Below are positions 1,904 to 51,036 of a stretch of DNA of 64,000 nucleotides, in pieces (positions within the stretch are counted from its first letter, which is position 1; every line of letters starts with the position of its first letter). Source of the stretch: Clostridium ljungdahlii DSM 13528 (lineage in GTDB: Bacteria > Bacillota > Clostridia > Clostridiales > Clostridiaceae). Location of the stretch: the NCBI RefSeq assembly GCF_000143685.1, contig NC_014328.1:4464001-4528000 (forward strand), written 5' to 3'. Position numbers and translations under genes: made by a program. The notes beneath the pieces were generated by a model. That model was not told the origin of the DNA and did not search any database. It saw only the letters and a list, made by a program, of their open reading frames with translations.

Positions 1904-2054
1904 AATCCTACCCTTTATACCTCAATTTCTTATTTACTTTTTTCGTCTACCTTATATTTCTTTCGTATCTCTTATAATTTTCCACAAGTCATTTTCCCTT
2001 CCGAGCAATATCCATTTACACAGGAAGGTCCACAGTTCATAAACAGAGTTCTTG

Positions 2055-2172
2055 GCATCAGATGGAGTTTTGACTCCACCTGATGCTTAGGAATCGTTAT
2101 CCAGGGACGTAGCTACTCTTTAATCCCACTTGGAGAAGTGGGATTATTAGAGCAGGTAGTCATCGGATAAAC
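2055..2172 (+). ncRNA. Structured RNA-like element, copy 1 (intergenic, unknown family)
   Basis: This fills the 310-nt gap between mrnC and rlmB, on the strand opposite those genes. It contains: a 14-bp hairpin (2055-2068 with 2073-2086, one A-C mismatch, TTTG loop); a closing helix GTTATCC (2096-2102) with GGATAAAC (2165-2172); and, inside it, a perfect 10-bp hairpin (2122-2131 with 2136-2145, GGAG loop). The junction motifs CCAGG, CGTAGC, GGTAG and ATCGGATAA recur in a second copy at 50329-50460, while the stem sequences differ. This looks like a conserved RNA fold or the structured end of a mobile element. I do not recognise the family with certainty. Confidence 0.6.
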
Positions 2173-6471: not shown

Positions 6472-6876
6472 ATGAAAGATATAATTTTTGATAATTTTCA
6501 AAACGCAGTAAGTGAATCTTTATTAAGGCATAAGAGTATTTTAGATATAATTACGAAACTTCAGGAGTCAAATGCTAGAATAAATAGAGCTGTTGCAAAA
6601 TCTATTACTAATTGCGGATGTATAGAAGTTTGTGGTAAGAAACAACATATTCCATCCGAAGATAATACTTTGGATATTGAATCCCTAAGATCTTGCTTAA
6701 GTACACATGTAAAAGGTAAGCTATGTGACAACTGTAGAGATGTAATACAAAACGAAATAGGAAATAATTTATTTTATCTTACTTGTTTATGTAATACGCT
6801 GGATATAAATCTATATGACATACTTTTAAAAGAGTATGACAAAATAAATACCCTAGGTAAGTATTCTTTCAGATAA
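6472..6876 (+). CDS. Conserved small Cys-rich protein, possible degenerate MazG-like/DUF1573 family
   Basis: 134 residues, one of the few plus-strand genes in the first 58 kb, divergent from the yacL-like gene and convergent with disA. I do not recognise it with certainty. It has paired cysteines, NCGC (48, 50), CDNC (85, 88) and TCLC (105, 107), which could bind metal. The C-terminal stretch EIGNNLFYLTCLCNTLDI resembles the last helix motif of MazG-like nucleotide pyrophosphohydrolases (EIGD-LFYL), but the upstream EExxE metal motif is not evident. Start: the TTG at 6463 abuts the AAGGAG site (6457-6462), so ATG 6472 is preferred. A shared bidirectional terminator follows. Confidence 0.75.
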   Translation: MKDIIFDNFQNAVSESLLRHKSILDIITKLQESNARINRAVAKSITNCGCIEVCGKKQHIPSEDNTLDIESLRSCLSTHVKGKLCDNCRDVIQNEIGNNLFYLTCLCNTLDINLYDILLKEYDKINTLGKYSFR

Positions 6877-6881
6877 TTTCT

Positions 6882-6916
6882 AGCACAAAATAATACCAGT
6901 CATATTATTTTGTGCT
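6882..6916. terminator. Bidirectional terminator between convergent genes
   Basis: A perfect 14-bp stem, AGCACAAAATAATA (6882-6895) with its complement (6903-6916), and a 7-nt loop. It serves the plus-strand Cys-rich gene and minus-strand disA; the disA stop codon at 6916-6918 touches the stem. Confidence 0.85.
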
Positions 6917-7980
6917 TAAAACTTATTGTCTATCATGATTTGTTCTCTAAGCCTTCTCAATCCATTCTTTATAGCTCTGGCCCTAGCTTCTCCTATTCCT
7001 TCAACTCTATCAAGCTGCTCATAAGATGCTTCCATAACACCTTTAAGCTCCTTAAAATTTTTCACTAAATTTTCTATTACATTAGTTGGTATTCTAGGAA
7101 TTTTATTTAACATTCTGTATCCTCTTGGTGATATCAATGTATCAACTAGAGGAACTCCTGCATATCCTAAAGATTTAGAAATACAATCAAGATTGAATAG
7201 TTCACTTGAACTTATTTCTTGAAGTTGCTTATATATTTCATCATAATCCATACCACTTTGACAATAGTCTCTTATCATAAATATTCCGTCTCTCTCAACG
7301 CTTTTAATTAATTCATTTAATTGCATTGAAATTAATCTTCCTTCATTGCCAAGTTCACATATGTATCTTTCAATCTCTGATACTATTCTCATTACCATTT
7401 CAGTTCTTTGGATAGCCGTCATTACGTCAAATAATGTTACTATGTCTTGAAACTCTAAAATATTAAGATTGTTAACAACCCCATCAAGTACAGAGACGTA
7501 CTTTTCTAAAGTTTGTAGTGCTTGATTAGCCCTTCCAAGCATAACACTACTATCCTGTAATACATATTTAATGTATCCTTTATATACGGTTATGACATTT
7601 CTCCTTTGAGAAATAGCAATAACTATAGCCCCTGTTTGTTTAGCCACTCTATCTGCAGTTCTATGCCTTGTTCCAGTTTCAAAAGTTGGAATAGATGAAT
7701 CTGGAATAAGTTGAGTATTTGCATATAATATTCTCTTTAAATCACTGCTCAATATTATAGCACCATCCATTTTTGCAAGCTCATATATATAAGAAGAACT
7801 GTACTCAGAATTAATGGTAAATCCACCGTCTACCACTTTCATTATCTGTTCACTATCTCCTAAAACTACAAGTCCACCGGTTTTAGCTCTCAAAATATTT
7901 CTAAGACCTTCCCTAAGTTGAGTACCTGGTGCTAAAAGTTTTAATATACTTTTAAGTTCTTTATCTTTTTCTAATCTCAA
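6916..7980 (-). CDS. disA: DNA-integrity scanning protein, diadenylate cyclase DisA
   Basis: This protein makes cyclic di-AMP from two ATP while scanning DNA and stalls at branched structures. The N-terminal DAC domain shows the catalytic DGA triad (about residues 72-74) and RHR (105-107); a helical linker follows, then a C-terminal helix-hairpin-helix DNA-binding domain ([19 protein letters not shown]). About 354 residues, typical of the family. Start choice: GTG 7989 and ATG 7986 lie too close to the AGGGTGAT ribosome binding site, while TTG 7980 gives good spacing and the usual N-terminus; ATG 7986 remains possible. It follows radA by about 14 nt and shares its transcript. Confidence 0.95.
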
Positions 7981-16948: not shown

Positions 16949-17023
16949 TGGCTCCGTGGAGAGGGCTCGAACCTCCAACCCTTCGGTTAACAGCCGAATG
17001 CTCAACCATTGAGCTACCACGGA
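16949..17023 (-). tRNA. tRNA-Asn (GTT)
   Basis: 75 nt including encoded CCA. Acceptor TCCGTGG/CCACGGA, anticodon loop CTGTTAA with GTT, T-loop GGTTCGAGCC. The sequence is identical to the second copy at 26184-26258. A terminator-like hairpin separates it from tRNA-Ala, so it may depend on read-through or its own promoter. Confidence 0.97.
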
Positions 17024-17049
17024 ACAATCTATGCAGTGTATTTCTTTAA

Positions 17050-17078
17050 AAAACGAGTAACAAAATGTTACTCGTTTT
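17050..17078 (-). terminator. Hairpin between tRNA-Ala and tRNA-Asn
   Basis: A 12-bp stem AAAACGAGTAAC (17050-17061) with 17067-17078, followed by TTTTTT on the minus strand. It begins at the CCA end of tRNA-Ala and looks like a genuine intrinsic terminator inside the tRNA run. Confidence 0.8.
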
Positions 17079-17153
17079 GGTGGAGATAAAGAGATTCGAA
17101 CTCTTGACCCTCTGCGTGCAAGGCAGATGCTCTCCCAGCTGAGCTATACCCCC
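17078..17153 (-). tRNA. tRNA-Ala (TGC)
   Basis: 76 nt with CCA. Acceptor GGGGGTA/TATCTCC, anticodon TGC in loop CTTGCAC, T-arm GAGTTCGAATCTC. It is downstream of 5S rRNA rather than in the 16S-23S spacer. Confidence 0.97.
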
Positions 17154-17156
17154 GCA

Positions 17157-17233
17157 TGGTGGACCTTCAGGGACTCGAACCCCGGACCCACCGGTTATGA
17201 GCCGGTTGCTCTAACCAACTGAGCTAAAGATCC
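17157..17233 (-). tRNA. tRNA with CAT anticodon, most likely tRNA-Ile2
   Basis: 77 nt with CCA, acceptor GGATCTT/AAGGTCC, loop CTCATAA. Both methionine tRNAs are found elsewhere in this window (the initiator with its C1-A72 mismatch and GGG/CCC anticodon stem; the elongator with loop TTCATAC) and this one matches neither. By exclusion it is the isoacceptor whose C34 is converted to lysidine by TilS, also encoded here. tRNA-Met remains the alternative. Confidence 0.75.
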
Positions 17234-17238
17234 TTATT

Positions 17239-17355
17239 ACCTGGCAGCGACCTATTCTCCCACAGAGCCTCCCCTGCAGTACCATCGGCACCCTGAAGCT
17301 TAACCTTCCTGTTCGGTATGGAAAGGGGTGTTACCTTCACGTCATTACCACCAGA
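17239..17355 (-). rRNA. 5S ribosomal RNA
   Basis: About 117 nt. The terminal helix TCTGGTGG.../...CTGCCAGG and the loop motif CCGAACAGGAAGGTTAAG are present. It lies between 23S and the tRNA pair. Ends are approximate by a few bases. Confidence 0.95.
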
Positions 17356-17454
17356 TATTTTCTTATCACAGTTTTATATTATACAGTGCTTTTAAACAAC
17401 TGTCAATACTAAACATGAATTTAACTATAAAAATTTTATAGTTAAAGAAGAACT

Positions 17455-17480
17455 TTGTCCTCTCAAAATTGCACAGTAAA
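17455..17480 (-). other. 23S rRNA processing stem, 3' arm
   Basis: 26 nt complementary to 20509-20534 with two mismatches, so the two arms bring the ends of pre-23S together. This is the expected long-range helix for RNase III-class processing; mrnC is encoded in this window. Confidence 0.75.
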
Positions 17481-17502
17481 CTTTTTTTCTTTCGTTTTTA
17501 TT

Positions 17503-20392
<2,890 letters not shown>

Positions 20393-20508
20393 TTATTGTC
20401 GAAAATTGCTATTAGCAATTTTCTTTGTATCATCTTAAATCTTTAAAATGATATTAAAGTTTATTCTACAAAGGTTATATTATAACCTTAGCTTTACTTT
20501 ATTTCTTA

Positions 20509-20534
20509 TTTACTGTGCAATTTTCAAAGGACAA
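20509..20534 (-). other. 23S rRNA processing stem, 5' arm
   Basis: Pairs with 17455-17480. It lies in the 16S-23S spacer (20393-20673), which carries no tRNA gene. Confidence 0.75.
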
Positions 20535-20584
20535 TTTTTCAATTTACATTCCTAATTGCTTGTAAACTGAAAGAAGAATCTATC

Positions 20585-20607
20585 TGATCCTTCAAAATTA
20601 AACAGAG
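20585..20607 (-). other. 16S rRNA processing stem, 3' arm
   Basis: 23 nt complementary to 22289-22311 with one mismatch, flanking 16S rRNA as the expected processing helix. Confidence 0.75.
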
Positions 20608-20673
20608 TAGACTTTCTAACTTACTTAAACCATCAATTTATAAGATAGATTATACTCTATCTTTCGACTCCCT

Positions 20674-22181
<1,508 letters not shown>

Positions 22182-22288
22182 TTTAAAAGTTTGTATTGAC
22201 TCTTCTTATTACGAAATTACTTTTTTAGCTGCTCTCGCAGCTCAAAAGAATTGCTGGTTTATTCTAAATAAGTTGTACTTATATCTTC

Positions 22289-25914: not shown

Positions 25915-26100
25915 AAAAAAAGAACCTGCCACATAAGGGACGAATTTTATTTCCGCGGTTCCACCCTCTTTAGCACAAGCTCATCTTTAAATACATAGTT
26001 AGCTCAAAAGTTCCTTCATAAATAAAATCCCAGTTGTTTACACCATCCACAACTTCTCTGTAGAGATTTACATTAATACTATTCTTTATCACAGCATATA
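25915..26100 (-). promoter_or_regulatory. T-box riboswitch leader of glyS
   Basis: The minus strand contains the invariant T-box sequence GGGTGGAACCGCGG (25953-25966). A terminator helix ends in GGTTC and seven T (25915-25921). Upstream is a Stem I-like region; a GGA glycine triplet at 26012-26014 in GAAGGAAC is the likely specifier. Uncharged tRNA-Gly would favour the antiterminator and glyS expression. Confidence 0.9.
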
Positions 26101-26183
26101 TTAATTTTTTCTATATAGTTTTCATCTTATCCTATTATCTTTAAATGTAAATAATAAGTCTTTAAATATTACAAAAAATGAAA

Positions 26184-26258
26184 TGGCTCCGTGGAGAGGG
26201 CTCGAACCTCCAACCCTTCGGTTAACAGCCGAATGCTCAACCATTGAGCTACCACGGA
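26184..26258 (-). tRNA. tRNA-Asn (GTT), second copy
   Basis: 75 nt with CCA and identical in mature sequence to 16949-17023. It stands alone between lysS and the glyS leader. Confidence 0.97.
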
Positions 26259-46663: not shown

Positions 46664-49600
46664 CTATTTTTGTTCATATATTTTTAGCATATATTTCACA
46701 ATTTCCTTAATCTGATGTAAAATATCTTCTCTTTTTACATTTTTTAATTTATATCCAAACCCGGGCTTTTTATTCATCTTCAACACAAACTCATGTGGAT
46801 AAGTTTTAAACAGTTCCCTAAGCACATTTTTGTCAACCCTATCCTGATCTTGAAATGAAAAAACAACTTCGTCCTTTATTTCTTTTATCTCCTCTATTCC
46901 AATTTTCTTACTCATACTTCTTATATAGGCTATATCCATCAAGTTGTATACTGAAGTTGGTATATCAGAGAATCTATCTTCCAATTCCTCTTTTATATCA
47001 AGCATATCATCATAGGAACTTATAGCTGCTATTTTCTTATATATTTCTATTTTCTGAACTTCACTCTTTATATAATTATCAGGTATATATGCATCTATTT
47101 TCAATTCTACAGTAGTTTCTACAGGTTCTTTGTCTATATCTCCTTTTATAAGCTTTATAGTATCCTCCAGCATCCTACAATAGAGATCATATCCTACAGC
47201 AGCCATATGACCATGCTGTGATGCTCCCATCATATTACCTGCACCTCTTATTTCCAAATCTTTTAGTGCTATTTTAAACCCAGATCCAAGTTCAGTAAAT
47301 TCTTTAATAGCTTTAAGCCTTTTTTCTGCTACTTCCGTAAGAACCTTATCTCTCCTATAGCTCAAGTAACAGTAAGCCATTCTATTAGTTCTTCCAACCC
47401 TTCCTCTTAATTGATATAGTTGTGATAAGCCCATTTTATCGGCATCATATATTATCATTGTATTTACATTCTGTATATCCATACCAGTTTCTATAATAGT
47501 AGTTGCTACTAAAACATTATACTCATTTTTCATAAAATCAACTATTATATTTTCAAGTTCTCTTTCTTGCATTTGTCCGTGAGCTACGGCTACTTTTGCT
47601 TCTGGAATTAGTTTGGCTATGTAAGAAGCCATTTCTTTTATGCTCTCAACTCTATTATAGACAAAATAAACCTGTCCTCCTCTATTTATTTCTCTTAGTA
47701 TTGCATCTCTTATTAATTGATCATTATATTCCACTACATAAGTTTGAATTGGATATCTTTCCTCTGGAGGTGTCTCTATAACACTTATATCTCTAGCCCC
47801 TACGAGAGACATATGTAATGTCCTAGGTATAGGTGTAGCACTTAACGTAAGTACGTCTACATTTTTTCTAATCTTTTTGATCTTTTCCTTATGACTTACT
47901 CCAAACCTCTGCTCCTCATCTATTATAAGAAGTCCTAAATCTTTAAATTGTACATCCTTTTGTAATATTCTGTGAGTACCAATTAATATATCAACATCTC
48001 CTACTTTAACTGCCTTTATGGATGCTTTTTGCTGTGCTGTTGTTCTAAACCTGCTTATCATATCTATTTTTACAGGAAAATCAGAAAACCTTTGAACAAA
48101 ATTATTATAATGTTGTTGAGCAAGTATGGTAGTTGGAACTAAAAATGCAACTTGCTTTCCATCCATAACAGCCTTAAAAGCGGCCCTTACTGCCACTTCT
48201 GTTTTTCCATATCCTACATCCCCACAAAGTAATCTGTCCATTACCTTATCTGATTCCATATCTTGCTTTATATCCTGTATAGTTGTAAGTTGATCTGGAG
48301 TCTCTTCATAAGGGAATTCATCCTCAAACTGTTTTTGCCATACTGTATCCTTTGAATACTTGTAACCTTTTAGAGTAGACCTAATTGCATATAATTTTAC
48401 TAAATCTTCAGCTATTTCCTCTATTGATTTCTTTACCTTTTTCTTAGCTTTGGCCCAATCTGATCCTCCCAATTTACTTACTTTGGGGCTCTTTCCTTCA
48501 GAACCTATATATTTTTGCACCATATCCAGTTGTTCTACAGGTACATACAATTTATCTTCTGAGTCATATATAAGTTCCAAATAATCTTTCTTGTGACCTT
48601 GAACTTCCAACTGCTTTATGCCTTTGTATATTCCTATACCATGATTTACATGTACTACAAAATCCCCAGGTTTAAGTTCTGTAAAGCTTTTTATTTTGCT
48701 TACTCCTTTTTTGAGAACCTTCCTTGTATTCTTCTTTTTTGCTTCCCCAAAAACTTCTTTATCTGATATGACCCCTAGTTTAAAATCCGGATATTCAAAA
48801 CCCTTGAGTTGGCTTCCAAAAGTTATAACAACTTCCCCTGATTTAATCTCATGAATAACATCTCTATAACTACTTTCTATGCCTTTTTCTCGTAAAGTGT
48901 CTACCAATCTTTCTCCTCTAGGTCTTGTTCCAGATAAGATCAAAATTTTATAACCTCTAGACTTTTTATCCTTTATATCCTCAATAAGTAAATCTATCTG
49001 TCCTTGGTAACTATTTAGAGTTATCTGAGAAAAATTAGTTATAGTTTTAGGTTGAATAACCTTAGAAGACTTAGCAATAGCATCTAAGGTCATAATTTCC
49101 TTATTTTTAAGTTCTTCAAATAAATCAGATTTTGCACATAACATTTTACTCTGTTTGGGGAGTATATTTCCCCTTTCTAAAAGATTTTTATAATTTTCTT
49201 CAAATTCAAAATATACACTATCTAATTTCCCGGAGCATCTCTGCACATCATCCATAACTACAAAATAGTCCTTAGCATAATCAAGGAAAGAAGCAGGCTT
49301 ATCATAAAAATATGGAAGAAAACTATCAATATTTTCAAAGCTCCAGTTCTCCTCTAGACTCTCTAAGTTTTTCTTTGTTAACTCATCTATTCTATCCAAT
49401 GCTTCTTTATTCTTGCTTTTTTCTAATTTTTTTTCTACTAAAGCTGCGTCATCTTCTATACTTTTTCTTCCCTTTTGAATCTTATCCTTATCAAGAATAA
49501 TCTCTTTAGCAGGAAATATTTCTATACTGTCTAATTTATCAATACTTCTCTGCGATTCTAAATTTAAAGTTCTAATAGATTCTACTTCATCCCCAAATAG

Positions 49601-50185
49601 CTCTATTCTATATGCTTCTGCAGCTATTGGTGAGTATACATCCATTATGTCACCTCTTATGGAAAATTGGCCTTTTGAATCCACAATCTCATTTTTTTCA
49701 TATCCACTTTGAACCAATTTCTCACTTATATCTTTTAAATTTAAAGCCTCCCCTACAGATATGTTAATTATATAATTTTCATATAACCCTACAGGTATAT
49801 ATGCAGAGGCCAAAGATTCCACACAAGTTATTATAATTTTTCTACCTGTATCTATCATTTTCCTTATTACCTTTAATCTTTCCCACCTCAGGTCTCCCGA
49901 TATGGCATCTATATTATAAAATACCATCTCTTTAGTAGGAAAATAATATACTTCTGCTAAATAAAGGGATAGATCTTCATATAGTTTTCTGGCTTCTACA
50001 TCACTATGAGTAACAATTAGGAAAGGCTTGTCTATTTCGTTATACACTCCATATATTAAGTAACTTTTAGCTGACTCTGAAAGTCCAAATACCCCTATAG
50101 GGAATTTTTTTTTGCTTATTCCATCAATAATATTTCTAAATTCTCTACTCTCCCTCATAGGTTTTATAAGTCCATCTAATCTCAT
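46664..50185 (-). CDS. mfd: Transcription-repair coupling factor Mfd
   Basis: A translocase of about 1173 residues that removes stalled RNA polymerase and recruits UvrA. N-terminal UvrB-homology modules (about 1-350), an RNA-polymerase-interacting CarD-like domain near 495-560 ([19 protein letters not shown]), RecG-like motor with Walker [10 protein letters not shown] (about 653-661) and DEEQ box [11 protein letters not shown] (about 751-761), TRG motif and C-terminal TRCF domain. Start: ATG 50185 has GGGTGGT at good spacing; the upstream 10-codon extension does not. Its leader holds structured element copy 2. Confidence 0.97.
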
Positions 50186-50328
50186 TTTAACAACCACCCT
50201 ACAAATTTTATTCATCCAACTCTAGATAAATATTGCACTTAAGTTTTTTAATTTAACGCACAACAACCGTTAATCTCTTTGTTTAAAGAGATTATACGGT
50301 ATCAACTGACTTATTTTGTAATAAGCTT

Positions 50329-50460
50329 TATCCGATCGCTACCATTGCTAACCCCCCCCTCTTCTATCAAAGTAGGGGATAAGCACTGCTACGCGCCTGG
50401 ATAAGTTCTTCTAAAGTTCAGCTGGAAAAAGTTGTCCTTATAAGCAAACTCCATCTGAAC
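50329..50460 (-). ncRNA. Structured RNA-like element, copy 2 (pth-mfd gap)
   Basis: The element begins at the base after the pth stop codon. On the minus strand: a hairpin GTTCAG...CTGAAC (outer arms 50455-50460 and 50416-50421, with CAGATGGAGTTT as in copy 1), a closing helix CTTATCC/GGATAAAG, motifs CCAGG, CGTAGC, GGTAG and ATCGGATAA, and an inner C-rich/G-rich hairpin. A further 10-bp hairpin lies downstream (about 50268-50300). The stems differ in sequence from copy 1 while junction motifs are kept, the pattern of a conserved RNA fold. Confidence 0.6.
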
Positions 50461-51036
50461 CTAAGAATCACTTGATATTTTTAATCCATTGAACTTATTC
50501 ATAGCTTCTTCTACTCCACAATTTATGAGACATTCCAATACATCTGCGCTAGTTTCTAAAACCTTTTCTATATCATTTCTTTCATTTATGTCAAATTTTC
50601 CCAAAACATGAGATACAAGATCCCCTTTAGGCTGTCCAATCCCTACTTTTATTCTTGGGAATACATCTGTACCTAAATTTGCTATTACGCTCTTTATGCC
50701 ATTATGTCCTCCAGCACTTCCATGTTTTCTTATTCTAATTCTTCCAATTTCAAGGTCTATATCATCGTATATAATTATTATATTGCTGCTTTTTATCTTA
50801 AAAAAATTTGCAGCCTCTATTACACTCTCTCCACTCAAATTCATATAAGTACTCGGTTTTAATAACATTACTTTATTATCTGCTATTATGCCTTCTCCAT
50901 AGGTTCCTTTAAATTTTTCCCTATTTATAGGAATATTATACTTACTACTTATTAAATCTACAGCATCAAACCCTATATTGTGTCTTGTATGCTGATACTT
51001 AGTTCCTATATTTCCTAATCCAACTATTAAAAACAT
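50461..51036 (-). CDS. pth: Peptidyl-tRNA hydrolase
   Basis: A 191-residue enzyme that recycles peptidyl-tRNA dropped from ribosomes. N-terminal [19 protein letters not shown] holds catalytic His19; [15 protein letters not shown] and [11 protein letters not shown] carry the remaining substrate-binding residues. Complete and of normal length. ATG 51036 with GGAGTG. Its neighbours prs (upstream) and mfd (downstream) follow the B. subtilis order, but htrA and a two-component pair lie between prs and pth. Confidence 0.96.

Follow-up and report, generated by a model that had tools for sequence, protein, structure and literature searches.

A dispersed, gene-less structured repeat with an internal guide-like sequence in Clostridium ljungdahlii and other clostridia: a candidate for movement as a folded single strand

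The stretch of DNA analyzed here, hereafter the window, comprises 64,000 nucleotides of the Clostridium ljungdahlii DSM 13528 genome (NC_014328.1, positions 4,464,001 to 4,528,000; a single contig of 4,630,065 bp) and contains two copies of a small structured element. The first (2039..2166, plus strand; 128 bp, subfamily I) lies antisense to ORFs whose domains are those of RNase III, a SpoU methylase and cysteinyl-tRNA synthetase. The second (50332..50476, minus strand; 145 bp, subfamily II) sits at the 3' end of the ORF 50461-51036, on the same strand as this ORF and the ORF 46664-50215, which, from their sequences rather than from a family search, we take to be pth and mfd respectively. A preliminary description had placed the element at 2055..2172, with a second copy about 48 kb away, the two being opposite to each other in orientation relative to their neighboring genes; the folded element, the second copy and the contrast in orientation are all real, whereas the true unit spans 2039-2166, its 5' end lying further out. 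A covariance model recovered only these two copies in the window (matches at 2039-2171, 153.9 bits, and 50327-50476, 119.2 bits), the three other matches with E<=1 being readings of the opposite strand at the two copies (E = 0.00096 and 0.22) and a stretch at 6865-6931 (E = 0.18). Elsewhere the window contains an rRNA operon with tRNAs (16952-22185) and a T-box leader (25933-26101, minus strand; 98.8 bits) with a tRNA gene nearby (26187-26258).

Copy 1 consists, from its 5' end and on the plus strand, of a terminal ATAAAC (2039..2044), hairpin 1 (2049..2092), an internal guide GTTATCC (2096..2102) and hairpin 2 with its inner stem (2106..2161), followed by the target word ATAAA (2167..2171), before which the element is inserted. 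The 5' terminus has the form AT(N)AAX and is complementary to the guide if N is bulged; the guide is also complementary to the 3' end GGATAA. In copy 2 sequence and alignment place the guide, CTTATCC, at 50399..50405, and the target word ATAAA lies at 50327..50331 (both on the minus strand).

The window segment 2040-2190 has a folding energy of -59.4 kcal/mol, as against -33.96 +/- 3.93 in dinucleotide shuffles (z = -6.47; none of 200 as good). To examine conservation of this fold we used two alignments, namely A1, containing 38 of the 49 length-selected copies of the home genome (11 being dropped by no fixed rule), which were aligned without structure, and A3, containing 65 sequences, of which other genomes contributed 62. 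In A1, 96.0% of the cells pair, while slid controls give 33-50%, and double changes are seen in 16 of the 40 pairs (138 cells versus 51.0 in shuffles). In A3, pairing is kept by double changes in 32 of the 40 pairs (307 cells versus 72.7 in shuffles; covariation score 0.378 versus 0.133), counts that lean towards the model structure because the alignment was fitted to it; the shuffle controls ignore the relatedness of the sequences. Such changes affect 13 of the 17 pairs of hairpin 1 (n = 65 sequences) and all 17 pairs of helices 3-6 in hairpin 2, and the closing-stem pair CC/GG is also seen as CT/AG (four U-A cells at the outermost C-G position). Leaving aside the G-T-richest pair, G-T and A-C mismatches stand at 35 to 30 in A1 and at 63 to 39 in A3, whose members were picked by a model that favors G-U. 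The covariation shows that one strand has to fold, either as RNA or as single-stranded DNA; the free-standing RNA suggested earlier may be one form of it. The selected, RNA-like fold with covariation that had been proposed from the two window copies is thus borne out in both alignments, its shared junction motifs and kept pairing hold across the 38 home copies, and homologs with compensatory changes are found both in the home genome and in other genomes. The element matches no family in Rfam 15: the whole window at gathering cut-offs left it unmatched, the 500 bases round copy 1 gave only a chance hit (E = 8) with E-values to 10, and ten further element loci gave none at the element with E-values to 0.1.

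BLASTN searches of the home genome recovered 51 pieces with copy 1 and 64 with copy 2 (40 candidates scored per query). A covariance model built from the 38 home copies (R1) returned 149 matches with E <= 0.001 among 150 candidates scored; the number of distinct places is somewhat lower, because some matches are parts of composites or the two strands of a palindrome, and there may be further copies beyond the candidates scored. The home genome contains more than 100 copies of this small, gene-less, dispersed structured element. They fall into three types, namely I (ATAAAC...GTTATCC...GGATAAA), II (ATCAAG...CTTATCC...GGATAAA) and III (ATCAAT...ATTATCT...AGATAAA), along with hybrids of these. 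Individual copies carry 0, 1 or 2 of a 51-bp module seated at the tip of hairpin 2 (2106..2161 in copy 1) or, in type III, of hairpin 1, and in some hairpin 1 is followed by a module of ~52 bp that looks like a repetition of it. The pneumococcal BOX element is likewise a modular repeat with a variable number of inner modules, a likeness that holds by description only. Sixteen home-genome matches that were short or odd proved to be composites with extra modules, decayed copies and palindromic repeats containing hairpin 1 alone; reading ~30 bases before and 250 after each match in 15 stretches of ~6 kb round them revealed no autonomous long copy.

Beyond the home genome, R1 matched at least 83 of 194 genomes of the home family (23 of 46 genera, counting the home genome itself), at least 31 of 391 genomes of the class, of which 17 belong to nine families besides the home family, and at least 36 of 398 genomes of the phylum, of which 34, from 17 families, are not members of the class. 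All three are minimum counts, since surveys of more than 40 genomes used stricter filters and 8 or 17 scored candidates per genome; the majority of the sampled class and phylum genomes gave no match. When named genomes were scanned by pattern, at least 111 stretches were recovered, with Clostridium ragsdalei, C. carboxidivorans, C. drakei, C. ljungdahlii ERI-2, Haloimpatiens, Desulfosporosinus, Thermincola, Desulfoscipio, Tindallia and a Massilibacillus MAG among the matches listed. Searches with blastn found no match in a plasmid collection (four elements as queries) or in phages (two elements). The element would be a widespread structured repeat that is lacking from Rfam. It is not mentioned in the available portions of two papers on C. 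ljungdahlii and C. autoethanogenum (PMC6203783, PMC4022347), and is nowhere described in clostridia in the literature covered, which takes in few of the subscription papers.

Comparison of orthologous sites in two close relatives (genomes G142 and G139) revealed insertion differences at both window copies. The site of copy 1 is empty in G142, reading GTCCACAGTTC|ATAAACAAATTAG (junction GTTC|ATAAACAAATTAG) where the home genome has 128 bp in between, and in G139, where it reads GTCCACAGTTC|ACAAACAAATTAG. The site of copy 2 is empty in G139 (GGATTAAGAAT|ATAAAGCTTAT; junction GGATTAAGAAT|ATAAAGC), with ATAAA present once; as the left word ATCAA belongs to the element, nothing is duplicated, and this subfamily-II empty site excludes a target duplication. 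In G142 copy 2 is present at the orthologous site (locus L212) with an extra module of ~52 bp that is absent from the home genome; given that a single insertion differs in this module, modules are gained or lost in place. The flanks of copy 1 are 96-98% identical and those of copy 2 are 95.5-97.0% identical to both G142 and G139, so the insertion differences are of recent origin; copy 2 may represent a gain, or its absence from G139 a precise loss. Across 69 oriented home copies, which were picked by their end motifs and are hence biased to intact ends, the right flank has ATAAA exactly in 58 and no other signal, and the left flank has no signal at all (<=0.11 bits per position). There are also cases of tandem copies sharing a target word. 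Thus, both at the window copies and in the flanks of the 69, a fixed word is kept once beside the insertion without target duplication. With its empty sites in close relatives and its many dispersed, sharp-ended copies, the element is mobile, as had been suspected, and it explains insertion differences among close strains. A classical MITE of a DDE transposon is rejected by ends of the form ATAAAC... / ...CGG|ATAAA, which have neither terminal inverted repeats nor a duplication.

The ends of the element are also related to the guide. Complementarity links the 5' terminal AT(N)AAX to the X'TTAT part of the guide, and X and X' form a Watson-Crick pair in 57 of the 65 sequences (C-G 40, G-C 14, T-A 3), as against 32.3 +/- 3.0 in shuffles, of which none of 10,000 was as high, though these ignore relatedness and so yield no probability. 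Among the eight exceptions, three (L137, L165 and L169) are one base longer and could pair with a two-base bulge, two (L118 and L147) have G-T, and three are unpaired. In its full form, X'TTATCC, the guide is complementary to both ends of the element, to these ends when joined as GGAT(N)AAX, and to the target word. In 28 subfamily-I copies the ends and the guide are also the least diverged parts (1.8-2.9% versus 3.9-8.2% per 10-base segment). This complementarity suggests that one internal splint could hold both ends together, and we infer that the two may pair with the guide simultaneously.

We considered how far these features resemble known mobile systems. The available part of a published account of IS608 describes insertion 3' of TTAC, with retention of that word in the left flank, and cleavage sites that are chosen through pairing with tetranucleotide guides, one of which precedes each hairpin on its 5' side (PMC5934647). 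When read on the strand that carries the target as TTTAT, our element has the order TTTAT|left end, hairpin 2, guide, hairpin 1, and TTTAT or TTGAT. To the extent of that account, it resembles IS608 and the IS200/IS605 family in the word found once 5' of the left end, the lack of duplication, the hairpins and the pairing of guide with cleavage site. The order at the right end (guide, hairpin, cleavage site) is alike, whereas that at the left end differs, and IS608 has one guide per hairpin, 5' of it, in contrast to the single guide between the two hairpins of our element. It also differs from IS200/IS605 in that a Y1 gene was found neither within the element nor elsewhere in the home genome. 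A preference for the lagging strand is typical of IS608-type elements; our element shows a weak replication-strand bias (77 of 130 matches, p = 0.04, for one assumed terminus, and p up to 0.14 for others; 19 short or partial matches of the 149 were excluded), which speaks against movement of the IS608 kind.

Among high-copy repeats, the nearest known analog, likened by description and not by sequence, is bcr1, which is portrayed in the parts of the sources at hand as a structured, mostly chromosomal, MITE-like repeat with TTTAT motifs, often located in UTRs (PMC6542083, PMC3446304), and for which copy numbers are reported in part of a further paper (PMC8725734); another names bcr1 only among its references (PMC4877379). 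On these partial descriptions both are short, structured, high-copy chromosomal repeats with TTTAT, but bcr1 is reported to be restricted to the B. cereus group (PMC6542083, PMC3446304), whereas our element occurs in clostridia and in other families of the phylum. REP sequences are described, again in portions of the sources, as high-copy extragenic palindromes linked to TnpA-REP (RAYT), with a proposed single-strand movement (PMC8266576, PMC3733652). In comparison our element is four times longer and has two hairpins and a precise ATAAA target; in a test for the REP-like arrangement of repeats flanking a RAYT gene, no element was found in 30 Y1-transposase loci (~1.5 kb on each side, E<=1). 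The Clop-1, Clot-1 and Clot-3 families, known by partial description (PMC2267715), could be relatives.

Taken together, our best reading, with a probability of about 0.5, is that of a non-autonomous mobile element whose movement would depend on its fold: a folded single strand would be mobilized through guide pairing in an IS200/IS605-like manner. The folded single strand would be the moving form, with the guide X'TTATCC serving as a splint on which the 3' end GGAT would pair with ATCC and the 5' end AAX with X'TT, so that the ends are brought next to one another, ready to be cut and joined. The freed form would then recognize a new site by pairing of the same guide with ATAA, and the enzyme would be supplied in trans. 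Such a shared guide would offer a testable prediction as to how a gene-less element finds both its ends and its target. We do not claim membership of the IS200/IS605 family for it, because ends in common with a Y1 element were sought and not found. A bolder extension, which we advance only tentatively, is that these are minimal gene-less elements found phylum-wide and moved by an enzyme other than the known single-strand transposases, with one splint setting both excision and target, as DNA or RNA.

This reading has to be weighed against others that differ in the nature of the mobilizing enzyme. An ordinary derivative of an IS200/IS605-type element, whose known Y1 transposase has since been lost in some genomes, would account for the hairpins and the target geometry, and a Y1 match is indeed present in 69 of the 83 element-bearing genomes of the home family (14 having the element only). 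We consider it unlikely, since Y1 is also present in 82 of the 111 element-free genomes (29 have neither; Fisher p = 0.16), the home genome as well as G133 and G136 have no Y1_Tnp match, and the 30 Y1 loci include no Y1 element bearing these ends. Moreover, Y1 is absent from 6 of the 34 element-rich genomes, i.e. those in which all 17 scored candidates matched. The same Y1 results also count against our own reading. An improbable reading of similar standing is a SINE-like retroelement, the RNA of which would be copied by a reverse transcriptase acting in trans, with priming from a nicked TTTAT to which its 3' AUAAA is annealed; the RNA-like covariation and a target word able to pair with the 3' end are in its favor. 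Target-primed copying, however, usually results in 5' truncations, and the 5' ends of the oriented copies inspected are precise.

Less likely again is a partner or derivative of IS110 with a bridge-RNA-like guide specifying donor ends and target for a DEDD recombinase. In its favor, the guide is complementary to the joined ends, and the home genome has five IS110 (PF01548) matches; across the 194 genomes (both 49, element only 34, IS110 only 50, neither 61) IS110 shows the highest association of the three enzyme families, though it is not significant (p = 0.06). Bridge RNAs specify both sides of the target, whereas here one side only is specified, and 13 of the 34 element-rich genomes are without IS110 matches. 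An all-against-all comparison of 2584 neighboring ORFs from 182 loci, performed to find a helper, had no TnpB or other transposase family among its top 25 clusters, which on our own reading, made without a family search, are presumably household families such as ABC ATPases, regulators and transporters, together with translations of the element itself. It is possible that the helper has been lost, lies outside Y1, TnpB and IS110, or consists of host enzymes; the element points to a mobilizing enzyme yet to be named in well-studied acetogens such as Clostridium ljungdahlii.

The strong fold and covariation might alternatively reflect a host-serving non-coding RNA or UTR element, with each copy being useful, and just 2 of the 69 copies are spanned by an ORF of >=90 codons. 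Yet we hold this to be very unlikely, as close relatives differ in insertions and the orientation to flanking genes is not fixed (25 ++, 17 +-, 14 --, 11 -+); the latter also rules out a cis-regulatory element, in agreement with the earlier argument against a cis-riboswitch. In 28 type-I copies, chosen by length and end motifs, the changed pairs comprise 25 G-T, 21 A-C, 28 compensated and 26 other cells, and the similar numbers of G-T and A-C are consistent with copies that drift once inserted and source copies that keep the fold. Thus, contrary to a host role for each copy, the copies largely decay as if neutral; the lower rate of off-consensus states at paired positions (4.6% versus 6.9% at unpaired ones) and the 28 compensated cells, possibly shared by descent in sub-lineages, run counter to full neutrality. 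This is a caution for RNA screens, as strong covariation here most likely marks mobility rather than a host role per copy. Finally, a degenerate TnpB element or a TnpB guide RNA (omega RNA), as proposed in the preliminary description, would agree with the IS200/IS605-kind target geometry but is a very remote prospect, since TnpB has no significant association with the element over the 194 genomes (52 have both, 31 the element alone, 63 TnpB alone and 48 neither; p = 0.46; one TnpB-domain match in the home genome), the 30 Y1 loci contain no element, and no TnpB or transposase cluster emerged from the 182 loci. The other options raised there, a non-autonomous derivative or an undescribed element, are supported.

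Several copies have left traces in the coding sequences around them. The ORF that we read as pth owes its final four codons and its stop to copy 2 (window 50461-50485, minus strand); in G139, where copy 2 is absent, this ORF ends at a TAA within the target word ATAAA. Copy 1 breaks a Cys-rich ORF of 47 codons located between the RNase III-domain ORF and the SpoU ORF (window ~1972-2170, minus strand; locus L269, 1404-1547, minus strand), which is intact in G142; a Pfam search of it gave no match, and both its ends resemble, on our own reading, a presumably shrunken thyX. Locus L172 contains an ORF at 1324-2001, which we take to be acetyltransferase-like, that ends inside an element copy (1949-2082) and obtains its last codons and stop from it. 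In locus L106 an open frame from ~1157, presumably nucleotidyltransferase-like, crosses an element copy into a second reading frame, fusing two genes on paper. Loci L254, L265, L257, L261 and L267 contain the short repeats with hairpin 1 alone, some of which form a perfect palindrome, ATAAACAGA...TCTGTTTAT, and in L257 and L261 the left flank recurs in inverted form at the right, as if by template switching.
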